From positions 1 to 43,481 of the forward strand of contig CAIPKV010000076.1 in NCBI GenBank assembly GCA_903865745.1: DNA of 43,481 bases. Reading direction: 5' to 3'. The notes under the pieces were generated by a model. It ran no database searches, was not told where the DNA came from, and saw only the letters and a program-made list of their open reading frames with translations. A program made the translations under genes and the position numbers. Each line of letters starts with the position of its first letter. Position 1 is the stretch's first letter. Below, one piece after another: positions 15,413 to 28,651 of this stretch. This DNA comes from an uncultured Verrucomicrobia subdivision 3 bacterium. GTDB taxonomy: Bacteria; Verrucomicrobiota; Verrucomicrobiia; Limisphaerales; UBA11358.

Positions 15413-15645
15413 CGAGCATTAAAACAAAATAGTTCAGTTCCATACTTCCCAAAACCGCCTTTACCTACTCCATCCACCTGCCCGTTTTTGGGTCGGCCCC
15501 TTTCCCAAACCTGTAAGGTTTAAAATTATTCAGCCCAAAGTTGGTCCGAGCCAGCCGGGCGAGGAACTACCCTGGGTGTGACTTCCCAGCACCACTCCAT
15601 TACCGGTCAGGAAGGGCAAAATTCCACAAATGGGACACTCCTTAA

Positions 15646-15876
15646 CCTTTTTAACCGAGTGAATAGCCTTAATGGGCCGGTGCTTAACCTTAATCACTCA
15701 GTGATTAGTGTTAATAACGCGGCCATTAGCCTTAATCACCCGGCCATTAGCCTTAGTGACCGAGTAAATAGCCTTAGGAATTCAGTCCCTAACCTTAATG
15801 ACTCAGTGATTAACCTTAGTGACTGAGTGAATAACCTTAATCACCGAGTTAAAAACCTTAAGGAAGCCTCAAAAAA
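15646..15876. repeat. 21-bp tandem array, about 11 units, palindromic TAATCACTCAGTGATTA core
   Basis: Eleven consecutive 21-bp units begin CCTTA/CCTTT (one TGTTA), at 15646, 15667, 15688 and so on to 15856, without a phase slip. Each is a 17-bp more or less dyad-symmetric core plus a 4-bp spacer, usually RCCT. The unit at 15688 is a perfect 17-mer palindrome (15691-15707); others keep TAAT...ATTA ends with changed centres. Because 21 is a multiple of three, a frame of heptads (NLNHSVI, SLNHPAI, SLSDRVN) stays open from 15578 to 15826, but the unit pattern is conserved at the DNA dyad rather than as protein. I treat it as noncoding. Confidence 0.85.
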
Positions 15877-16250
15877 CCTTGGGAGCGGCGAGCCAAATCC
15901 AGTTCATACCGTTCTAAACCAATGTCTTGCAATGTAAAACACACTCAAACCAGCGTCCTGCCCCGTTCCAACCGAGCGTACTCGCCTCTTTGCGTCAGGG
16001 CGTTAAATCCCACTGCCCGCCACCTAGCTGCCAAATTTAACTAGAAGTCGCCAAGCCACGAAGACAAAGCTTGAGAAGTGACGATTTCGGCGTGCGAAGT
16101 TGAATACAAACGCAATCCAGTTCCACCTTGGCGTCCTGGCTCCCTGGTGTCTTGGCGTTAAATTCCCCAGTACCCGGCAAGCTTTACCACCCGATGCCAA
16201 CTGGTAATTTAACCTTGTTTAATAATATATGCTTATACTTTACAGAATTT
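15877..16250. other. Gene-free stretch with degraded repeat copies
   Basis: No gene is visible here. Two degraded related segments occur, near 15953-16022 and 16130-16180, sharing GCGTCCTG and GGCGTTAAAT followed by CCC. They read like remnants of dispersed repeats. The promoter of the small RNA candidate begins just after it. Confidence 0.5.
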
Positions 16251-23808: not shown

Positions 23809-24705
23809 ATGCGCGTGCATACCCGAACCCTGCGGCTTTTTTGTGACGTCGTGGCGAATCACGGCTACACCCGGGCCGCGCACGCGCAGGGTTGCACCCC
23901 GGCCCATGCCAGCCAGTCCGTGGCCGAATTGGAGGGCGTCTTCGGCATCCGCCTCGCCCAGCACGACTGCGCGCGGTTCACTTTGACCCCGGCGGGCGTC
24001 GTGTTCCATGCCGATACCCTTAAGCTGATCGCGCTCGAATCGAATCTCAAACGCGATATGAACCGGTCGCGCGCCACCACTGCCCGCACCATCCAACTCG
24101 CGTCGTGTTACAGTTATGGCCTGCACCAGTTGCAAGCCCGGCTCCCGCACTTTCAGCGCGCGCAGCCCAAGCTCGACGTTTCGGTGAGTTACCAACCCAT
24201 TGCCGCCGTGCATAAACTCGTGCTGGACCGCGCGGTCGATCTCGGGGTCGTGGCTTATCCCCGGCGCCTGCGGGAACTGGTCGTGGAATTAATATCGGCC
24301 GAACGCCTGGTGCTGGTGCTCCCGCCCGGACATCGGCTGGCCGTCGGCCCGGCGGTGCCGGTGATGGCGCTCCGGAATTTAGACATCATCGCTTGGGCGG
24401 AACTTCCGTGGGCGCATTTCCTGGCGAAAGTGCCGGACAGCCAGCGCGCCTTGTTTGAGCCGCGCCATGAGGTGCGCGATTTGGAAACGGTCAAGCAAAT
24501 GGTGCAACGCAGTTTGGGCGTGGCCGTATTACCGGCGGCAACGGTGGCGAGCGAGGTGGCCGACCAACGGCTGGCGGCGGTGCCCTTTGCGGACGGGCAA
24601 TACAGCGAACCGGTGGGTCTCATCTACCGGAAAGACCATAAACTGACCCCTGCCGTGAAAGCCTTCATCCAGTTCATGAAACAACCGCAGCCGCAGGCTG
24701 GGTGA
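23809..24705 (+). CDS. LysR-family transcriptional regulator
   Basis: A 298-residue regulator. The N-terminal winged helix-turn-helix is typical (TLRLFCDVVANHGYTRAAHA, the recognition part TPAHASQSVAELEGVFGIRL, and LTPAGVVFHADT). The substrate-binding domain from about residue 90 (IQLASCYSYGLHQLQARLP ... YSEPVGLIYRKDHKLTPAVK) has the CysB/CbbR-like LysR fold. The usual 'SQPALSRQI' sequence is replaced by TPAHASQSV, still alpha-helical. It has no obvious divergent target gene: the upstream 221 bp contain only a short minus-strand gene and low-complexity CTTCTGCATTC-type repeats. The effector is unknown. Confidence 0.9.
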   Translation: MRVHTRTLRLFCDVVANHGYTRAAHAQGCTPAHASQSVAELEGVFGIRLAQHDCARFTLTPAGVVFHADTLKLIALESNLKRDMNRSRATTARTIQLASCYSYGLHQLQARLPHFQRAQPKLDVSVSYQPIAAVHKLVLDRAVDLGVVAYPRRLRELVVELISAERLVLVLPPGHRLAVGPAVPVMALRNLDIIAWAELPWAHFLAKVPDSQRALFEPRHEVRDLETVKQMVQRSLGVAVLPAATVASEVADQRLAAVPFADGQYSEPVGLIYRKDHKLTPAVKAFIQFMKQPQPQAG

Positions 24706-24909
24706 TATTCTTTAGCCACAGATGGACACAGATGAGGGGAAAGGCATTTTACCCGCAGATAACGCAGATTTTCGCAGAATGGTTTTAGTTTAGGTTGATC
24801 GGCGTGAATCTGTGAAATCTGCACGCAAAGCCGGTGCCGCCGCCTGATTACCTGGTTTCGGCTCAAAACCACCGGAAATCTCCGCTTTACCGGGCTTTAC
24901 CCCGAAAAC
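24706..24909. other. Gene-free stretch with dispersed repeat pieces
   Basis: Holds a CACAGATGGACACAGATGA motif (near 24717), the CGCAGAT-type dispersed element (24752-24826) and a run-in to the 21-bp array. No gene is visible. Confidence 0.6.
24752..24826. repeat. Dispersed palindromic element, CGCAGAT type, copy 2
   Basis: Reverse-complement relative of 14169-14236: on the minus strand it reads CAGATTTCACAGATT, CACGCCGATC and ends CTGCGTTATCTGCGGG. The central part differs in length, which is typical of old copies of one family. Confidence 0.7.
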
Positions 24910-25108
24910 ACCAACTGGTCATGTCATTACACCAGCTGGTTTCATCACCAAACCAGCTGGTGTTGTCGCTAAACCAGTTGGTCTAGCCCTAAAACCAGTT
25001 GGTGCAGACTCAAAACCAGTTGGTCTCGTCGTAACACCAGTTGGTCCGGTCACGAAACCAGCTGGTCTAAGAGTAAAACCAGCTGCTTTCGTTACAAAAG
25101 CAGCTGCT
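24910..25108. repeat. 21-bp tandem array of ten ACCAGCTGGT-type palindromes
   Basis: Ten decamers start at exactly 21-bp intervals (24910, 24931, 24952, 24973, 24994, 25015, 25036, 25057, 25078, 25099). The order is ACCAACTGGT, ACCAGCTGGT twice, ACCAGTTGGT four times, ACCAGCTGGT, ACCAGCTGCT and AGCAGCTGCT. The last is embedded in a perfect 16-bp palindrome (25096-25111), reached by paired changes in both arms. The 11-bp spacers vary but tend to end in AA. Both strands stay open across it (heptads such as KPAGFVT), a by-product of the period being divisible by three. It starts after a dispersed repeat and ends 113 bp before the gap terminator. Confidence 0.9.
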
Positions 25109-25220
25109 TTTATCACACTTTTACCGGCTGGCGACGGTCTTTTAGGCGAATGATCGGGCTGGTTAACTACCTTTGTACCCTCATTGACATGCACTTAGGG
25201 GTTTTAAACTGATTCCAGAC

Positions 25221-25253
25221 AAACAAAAACGGCGACTCGTGCGAGTCGCCGTT
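25221..25253 (-). terminator. Intrinsic terminator of gap
   Basis: Twelve-bp perfect stem AACGGCGACTCG/CGAGTCGCCGTT with a minimal loop, followed on the minus strand by TTTTTGTTT. It lies 20 bp past the gap stop codon. Confidence 0.9.
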
Positions 25254-25272
25254 CTGAATTGATGCTAAAAGC

Positions 25273-26349
<1,077 letters not shown>

Positions 26350-27529: not shown

Positions 27530-28651
27530 ATGAAACTGTGGTTATTTTTTTGGGTGGGAGCTTGGCTGACCTATTCCAGCCTCGCGCAGGATACGGTAAC
27601 GGACAAGAATGTGACGACGCTGTGGCAATTCATATTGCCCGAGGGTGAATCGGCATCCTCCCCTGCCCTCGCACCGGATGGCACAATCTACGTAGGCACG
27701 TTTCCCGGCTGGCTGCTAGCGCTGACGCCGGATGGCAAGGTCAAATGGAAGTTTAAGGCTGGCATCGAAATCAAATCCTCGCCCGCAGTCGGTGCCGACG
27801 GCACGATTTACTTCGGCTCACGGGACCGAAAGTTTTACGCCCTCACGCCGCAAGGGAAATTGAAATGGTCCTTTGCCACCGACGCGTGGGTAGATTCCTC
27901 GCCAGCCATCGCAGCGGACGGCACACTTTATTTTGGCTCGTGGGATAACAATTTCTACGCGCTCAGCGCTGAGGGACAATTAAAATGGAAGTTCGCCACC
28001 GGCGGCACCGTGGATTCGTCGCCTGCGGTCGGCGCGGACGGAACGATATACTTCGGCTCTCACGATAAGAATCTTTACGCGCTCACCCCGGACGGTAAGT
28101 TGAAATGGAAGTTCGCCACCAGCGCGCAAATCGTCGCCTCGCCCGCGCTTGCGGCGGGTGGCTCGCTTTATATCAGCTCGACAGACGGGAACCTTTACGC
28201 ACTAAAACCCGACGGCACCGAATACTGGCGAATGCACACCGGCAGCTATACCGCTTCGACGCCGGTTCTGGACGAGCAAGGAAACCTTTATTTCTATGTT
28301 AAAGCGCAGGAATGCTCCGTGAGGCCAGACGGCAAAGGGCGCTGGCAATTTGACACCGCGCCGGATTCCACCGCCATTTCAGCGGCGGTCATCGGCCACG
28401 GTAATATATTCATGTCAGAGCCATGGAGCCGGGCCGGTCTGCTCACCGCCGATAAGAAGTTTAACTGGGAATTTCAAGTGGTTCACGACCTAAGCAGTTC
28501 ACCAAACGTCAGTCCAACCGGCATCATTTATTTCACCGCCGGAGAATTTCTTTACGCCATCCAGCCCGTGAAAGAAGTTGCGCCCCCTGCGAAAAGTGCC
28601 TGGCCGCTCTGGCGCGCAAACCCGCAGCACACCGGTCGCGTGCAGAAATAA
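27530..28651 (+). CDS. Exported PQQ-like beta-propeller protein
   Basis: A 373-residue protein starting at ATG 27530 with a signal peptide (MKLWLFFWVGAWLTYSSLAQ). At least six tandem repeats of about 40 residues follow the pattern SSPAVGADGTIYFGSxDxxFYALTPDGKLKWKFATG, which is the PQQ-type (BamB-like) eight-bladed propeller blade. No quinoprotein dehydrogenase active-site residues or disulfide ring are seen, so it is probably a binding or scaffold propeller, not an enzyme. The near-identity of successive blades points to recent duplication. No lipobox. It is divergent from trxB and converges on the DUF2203 gene with only 6 bp between stop codons. Confidence 0.9.
   Translation: MKLWLFFWVGAWLTYSSLAQDTVTDKNVTTLWQFILPEGESASSPALAPDGTIYVGTFPGWLLALTPDGKVKWKFKAGIEIKSSPAVGADGTIYFGSRDRKFYALTPQGKLKWSFATDAWVDSSPAIAADGTLYFGSWDNNFYALSAEGQLKWKFATGGTVDSSPAVGADGTIYFGSHDKNLYALTPDGKLKWKFATSAQIVASPALAAGGSLYISSTDGNLYALKPDGTEYWRMHTGSYTASTPVLDEQGNLYFYVKAQECSVRPDGKGRWQFDTAPDSTAISAAVIGHGNIFMSEPWSRAGLLTADKKFNWEFQVVHDLSSSPNVSPTGIIYFTAGEFLYAIQPVKEVAPPAKSAWPLWRANPQHTGRVQK

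Follow-up and report, generated by a model that had tools for sequence, protein, structure and literature searches.

An apparently non-coding array between a LysR-type gene and gapA, one of a genome-wide class of exactly spaced, mostly two-fold symmetric 21-bp repeats

The LysR-type regulator gene and gapA are convergent and lie 567 bp apart in the window, the whole stretch of 43,481 nucleotides from an uncultured Verrucomicrobia subdivision 3 bacterium that was analysed here. The interval between them holds ten units of a 21-bp tandem repeat (Table 1), which raises the question of what is kept in such an array: its letters, the pairing of its arms or its spacing. It is an intergenic and apparently non-coding representative of a genome-wide class of arrays that have an exact 21-bp period, are mostly two-fold symmetric and have no word in common.

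Table 1. Coordinates of the array, its surroundings and the second array of the window
Feature	Position	Strand	Remarks
21-bp array, ten units	24910..25119	.	core ACCAGYTGGT, loose spacer consensus
End units of the array			first ACCAACTGGT; last two ACCAGCTGCT, AGCAGCTGCT
Perfect 16-bp palindrome	25096..25111	.	at the AGCAGCTGCT end of the array
LysR-type regulator gene	23809..24705	+	neighbour, convergent with gapA
gapA, glyceraldehyde-3-phosphate dehydrogenase	25273..26340	-	neighbour
5' flank of the array	24706..24909	+	partly a dispersed repeat
3' flank of the array	25120..25210	+	common to the C61 and C8 arrays
Intrinsic-terminator-like hairpin	25226..25255	-	directly after gapA; consensus scan only
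Second array of the window	15620..15933	.	word CCTTAAT.AC.CAGT.A; dyad p 0.005; same class

Decamer k of the array begins at 24910 + 21k, with k running from 0 to 9. Palindromy is perfect in four of them, those at 24931, 24952 and 25057 reading ACCAGCTGGT and that at 25099 reading AGCAGCTGCT; the other six (24910, 24973, 24994, 25015, 25036 and 25078) have one broken pair of five. The preliminary description of ten palindromic or near-palindromic decamers at exact 21-bp steps, with a period that never slips, is borne out: the longest run of near-palindromic decamers spaced by 21 bp in the window is this array with its 10 members, against longest runs of 2, 2, 2, 2 and 3 in five mononucleotide shuffles of the window. 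The perfect 16-bp palindrome is also real and extends beyond the end that had been given to the array. The statement that the spacers differ almost completely from unit to unit goes too far, as their mean pairwise identity is 0.46 and that of random 11-mers drawn from the window is 0.24. The statement that both arms change together in the last units comes down to the single unit at 25099, the preceding unit at 25078 (ACCAGCTGCT) being altered on one arm only. Since 25099 adjoins this unit changed on one arm, and the AGCAGCTGCT end of the array matches the C68 array (89% over 36 bp), a mosaic join may be a fair alternative to compensation at 25099.

The array is one among many non-coding 21-bp arrays of its genome and is not special there. 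Tandem repeats of periods 10-60 were sought by lag identity (0.55 over windows of 105 bp) in the window and in 40 further stretches of its genome, together 675,454 non-N bases; 15 of the 40 stretches are whole contigs shorter than 20 kb, and three of those are all N. The scan found 41 tandem arrays, of which 31 have period 21, two of these in the window; the other periods are 22 (three arrays), 41 (two) and 12, 14, 33, 51 and 54 (one each). One first-order Markov sequence of 287 kb gave no array of period 10-60. With the window left aside, 29 period-21 arrays in 632 kb correspond to about 46 per Mb, or by extrapolation about 166 per genome; some arrays of the sample are copies of each other, such as L198, L200:1 and L211:1, which have 126 identical bp in common at contig edges. 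The period-22 arrays are L200:17834-18120, L209:9638-9967 and L036:11905-12211, the first two being copies at 98% with no length difference. The period-41 arrays (L041:13934-14311 and L201:10682-10979) have inverted words of the form GACC...GGTC and are perhaps a longer cousin. The 120-bp repeat at 27836-28120 of the window, within a beta-propeller (PQQ-like) gene, is an ordinary protein repeat.

According to a simple codon-usage gene caller (83% coding density), 27 of the 31 period-21 arrays have their centre outside any predicted gene; they lie between convergent (5), divergent (4) or same-strand (11) genes or at the edge of a stretch (7), contexts that suit neither promoters alone nor terminators alone. 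The remaining four fall in gene predictions of 67, 100, 178 and 531 aa. Dyad symmetry was tested over the whole 21-bp unit against permutation of the unit columns, in 35 period-21 arrays made up of the 31 of the sample and four others (two of C8, one each of C61 and C68). It is a genuine property of the 24910 array (z 4.6, p 0.005), as had been proposed, and of 28 of the 35 arrays at p 0.05 (19 at 0.005); the seven that fall short of p 0.05 are L044:1, L200:1, L202:3189, L203, L214:2747, L215 and L025:68. Since the test spans the whole unit, a symmetric array has a dyad every 10.5 bp, two per unit. None of the 4- to 6-mers is shared by the consensuses of the 35 arrays above the 95% level of their shuffles, and the GC phase about the dyads, at p 0.04 over 28 arrays, falls to p 0.31 over the 20 that are left once paralogues are dropped. 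A shared word and a shared GC phase are therefore rejected, and nothing yet marks a common protein site.

Both strands had been described as open across the array, leaving a coding reading ambiguous. This holds for the plus frame, open from 24848 to 25153 through all ten units, but the minus frame (25194-24919, GTG start, 91 aa) stops within the first unit. A heptapeptide-repeat protein, KPAGFIT-like in the plus frame or else the 91-aa product of the minus frame, is very improbable. Long open frames on both strands would suit it, as would the 3' flank, which is conserved between copies and readable in either frame. In the 35 arrays tested, an array has on average 1.86 open frames out of six, slightly above the 1.39 of its column-permuted counterparts, and 30 of the 35 have one against 26.3 expected. 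However, the plus frame contains no ORF of at least 20 aa with an ATG, GTG or TTG start, the C8 minus frame carries a TAA just ahead of the array, and the 15620-15933 array has no open frame. The 12 substitutions in the first eight unit pairs of the C8 sister array spread 4, 4 and 4 over codon positions. No coding signature was found, and the coding reading is rejected.

This sister array (C8:38060-38356, minus strand) repeats the 24910 array and is longer by one whole unit. In the first eight unit pairs spacer identity is 90% between cognate units and 44% between non-cognate ones, a conservation which indicates that the spacers are not free and that their diversity predates the copying. There 3 of 80 core positions and 9 of 88 spacer positions differ (p 0.14). 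The final two unit pairs are more diverged and were excluded from this test; all ten pairs together give 6 of 100 and 18 of 110. Conserved spacers together with drifting palindromes had been held to speak against selection on the dyad; the cognate spacers are indeed conserved, but the cores do not change faster than the spacers.

The flanks of the arrays are mosaic. The 5' flank of the 24910 array recurs (88% alike) at C61:47091-47279, ahead of another 21-bp array whose own 3' flank is shared with C8 (87% over 197 bp) and whose core is AGTACCTACT despite the shared flanks. It recurs also at C7:10489-10579 (97% over 90 bp), where no 21-bp array was seen. The 3' flank is 74% identical to that of C61 over 80 bp and 80% to that of C8 over 46 bp. 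In L030 and L205 compared with L042 and L217, flank stretches match at 81-100% and the arrays merely over 27 to 59 bp. Together with L031 these form a family with flanks in common (GGACATTTCGCCATATCC) and inner arrays of two unrelated words, in which the array seems to have been swapped or replaced within conserved ends. The arrays of L025 (C8) and L026 (C61) precede paralogous genes starting MTLQIAPIHVSLAFA; since near-identical DNA lies right before these genes, one duplication may have taken the array along with the gene.

Selection on the dyad, which the preliminary description read from the joint change of arms, is not supported by the arms themselves. In the 24910 array cognate arms agree at 44 of 50 positions, and randomly re-paired arms at 43.2 (p 0.52). 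Re-pairing at the 70 axes of the 35 arrays gives a combined z of 1.0 (32 positive, 37 negative), and at the 56 axes of the symmetric arrays a combined z of 1.8. An excess at one axis (p <0.02) is found in L030, L039, L038:14536 and L213, and a deficit of arm matches in several arrays, for example window:15620, L025:68, L026 and L198. The proposed scoring of compensatory against single-arm changes was carried out on paralogous arrays, seven hand-picked pairs with 685 dyad pairs, and its outcome is at chance level: 4 double changes are compensatory (3.1 expected by chance) and 17 are not, while of 108 single-arm changes 56 break a pair and 52 make one. Compensatory evolution of the dyad is therefore rejected. 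Changes are rarer at paired positions (56 of 359) than at unpaired ones (96 of 305; p 1e-6), which favours constraint on the former, although conserved columns alone could explain it. Long fold-back hairpins are likewise rejected, a whole-array fold-back signal being present in 1 of 25 arrays at p 0.05. With no overall co-variation of arms and no fold-back signal, base pairing is not visibly kept.

These results weigh on the reading of the arrays as RNA or single-strand DNA hairpins, transcribed from either side, in which adjacent cores would pair across 11-nt loops and serve as two-way terminators or RNase targets. The 24910 array folds far beyond its shuffles on both strands (z -9.8 and -9.5); terminator-like sites number 4 in 24600-25400 against 0.9 expected, with two such hairpins at 25080-25106, one on each strand. 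Such folding is, however, expected of any palindromic repeat, both a compensatory excess and a fold-back signal are absent, and hairpins do not require a fixed spacing. Moreover, gapA seems to have its own terminator in the hairpin just past it, so that the array is probably not needed for that role. We regard the hairpin reading as improbable. No family of Rfam reaches its gathering score in the window, and a known RNA family is rejected.

Spacing is the property that stands out. Phase tracking in the 35 arrays found 403 of 412 unit steps to be exactly 21, in sequences whose neighbouring units differ at 8.2 of 21 positions. Six of the nine other steps are at or next to an array end and three are internal or nearly so; these three measure 20 and belong to L198 and L213, which are copies, and to L202. 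A register test took the best local alignment of each paralogous pair at <99.5% identity. The 12 pairs of array copies (374 substitutions) have a net length difference of 0 or exactly 21 (21 in four of them), whereas 10 of the 22 flank pairs (262 substitutions) have other length differences (p 0.006). The contrast persists when the 22-bp arrays and their flanks are removed (0 of 11 against 7 of 19, p 0.03), when no array or flank enters more than once (0 of 7 against 6 of 9, p 0.011) and when two further array alignments, presumably second stretches, are added (0 of 14 against 10 of 22). Taken singly, 14 local gaps in the arrays have lengths other than a multiple of 21, but within each alignment they cancel or sum to 21. 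What looks protected is spacing or register, not any letter or base pair, with the caveat that arrays detected by their period are biased towards those in register and that many are copies of each other. In this genome net length looks protected, and letters, arms and base pairs drift.

A purely mutational product without function might also grow in whole units. Replication slippage by whole units and template switching between inverted words would have created and spread the arrays, the switching would have given the units their symmetry, and the period would descend from a few founder arrays; template switching is a published source of perfect stems (PMC8794818). Several observations suit this account. 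Units are more alike than random ones at lag 1 (z 5.2) and lag 2 (z 7.1), and copies differ in length by whole units. Of 510 core instances 25 are flipped in register, and at control axes, a lenient control, 30 of 13,800 are. Families with common flanks have different words, the 35 consensuses lack a shared motif and the word of the 24910 array is found in none of 195 other genomes of the order. The account explains neither why net differences other than 21 are missing in arrays yet common in flanks nor why one period prevails across many different words. We consider it possible, if rather unlikely, and place it close behind our first choice.

This first choice, a tentative one given somewhat less than even chances, is that the arrays are helically phased sites for a DNA-architectural protein; it is preferred because the register looks protected and the letters and pairs are not visibly so. 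The double helix itself would be the protected feature, presenting two-fold symmetric sites on one face of the DNA at each helical turn. A putative dimeric architectural protein of the nucleoid type, with weak sequence preference, could polymerise or sit cooperatively on the array, and the resulting scaffold might contribute to the organisation or insulation of the chromosome in the intervals between genes. The three period-22 and two period-41 arrays do not fit a strict 10.5-bp pitch. That the arrays amount to a genome-wide set of scaffolds and a bacterial chromatin-like code, in which helical phase and two-fold symmetry are read in place of sequence and any word works provided that a dyad recurs every turn, is doubtful.

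In 33 stretches of the same genus there are 3 period-21 arrays in 438 kb, against 20 expected at the rate found here, and none in 29 same-genus gapA loci (107 kb), a rarity to which repeat loss in these draft assemblies may add. Two of the same-genus arrays, L182:18966-19271 and L194:10098-10507, have different palindromic-looking words. A pair of ACCAGYTGGT cores at exactly 21 bp occurs in the genome itself and in 0 of 195 other genomes of the order, and blastn of the array gave no match in 39 relatives. This rarity in the genus and the confinement of the word indicate that the function of the array, if any, is not conserved. A survey of 80 named gapA loci (1.27 Mb) contained 41 arrays, 7 with period 21; among four of these that were inspected three look coding and one, in a Nostoc (L076), is palindromic. 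Viral copies of the pattern are rejected: eight viral contigs gave one match each, one of these on both strands, and two of the matches lie within short 21-bp repeats (identity 0.56). Among the best 80 of 588 named relatives of gapA the labels are mixed, with Omnitrophota, Phycisphaerales and Spirochaetes at 84-86% and Opitutus, Akkermansia and other Verrucomicrobiota mostly at 67-69%. A LysR-gapA locus conserved in relatives is rejected, tblastn of the LysR protein over 49 loci (the 29 gapA loci and 20 stretches) giving a single place, 31% alike, in two overlapping loci.

Comparison with known systems leads away from several familiar elements. CRISPR arrays have longer repeats, unique spacers and cas genes nearby; here the whole unit is only 21 bp, and no Cas family of Pfam was found among the nine proteins of the window that were scanned. 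Iteron and parS-type replication and partition sites pair one word with one protein at one or few loci. The present arrays resemble them in repeats spaced near two helical turns and differ in their many words and many loci. REP / RAYT elements are palindromes of 20-40 bp in families tagged GTAG or CGTC (PMC3733652). They share with our arrays the character of short palindromic dispersed repeats, and the genome has two matches to Y1 transposases, but 21-bp tandem arrays with changing words are unlike them and this identity is rejected.

The 24910 array belongs instead to a known, unexplained class, the constant-size, variable-sequence tandem repeats of 20-21 nt described in bacteria by Subirana and Messeguer (PMC8161180), who equate 20-21 nt with two helix turns and propose either a protein dependent on one fixed repeat size or small RNAs. 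They describe an exact repeat size, several sequences per genome, mostly non-coding positions, species specificity and several to tens of units, all of which the present arrays share: a constant length in 31 of 41 arrays and 403 of 412 steps, several sequence families in the genome, and absence from the 195 genomes of the order and the 39 relatives. The density here is high, about 46 per Mb by the present scan; a table of theirs, obtained by another method, gives 29 repeats of 20-21 nt in the 4.36 Mb of B. weihaiensis. One short signal word in most arrays of a species, which they report as an accompaniment and which is not taken here to define the class, was not found in our 35 arrays. They note short sequences together with their reverse in 52-nt repeats, and their text has no word beginning with "palindrom"; among the papers listed by full-text searches of open-licence literature, mostly judged from titles and the beginnings of abstracts, none concerns such arrays with dyad symmetry. 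The papers describing the class leave open why some bacteria keep many repeats of a single length in many sequences, a question that becomes testable in this genome, where arrays are dense, occur in paralogous copies and have flanks as a built-in control. Symmetry of the whole unit, common here, is what the present arrays add to the known class.
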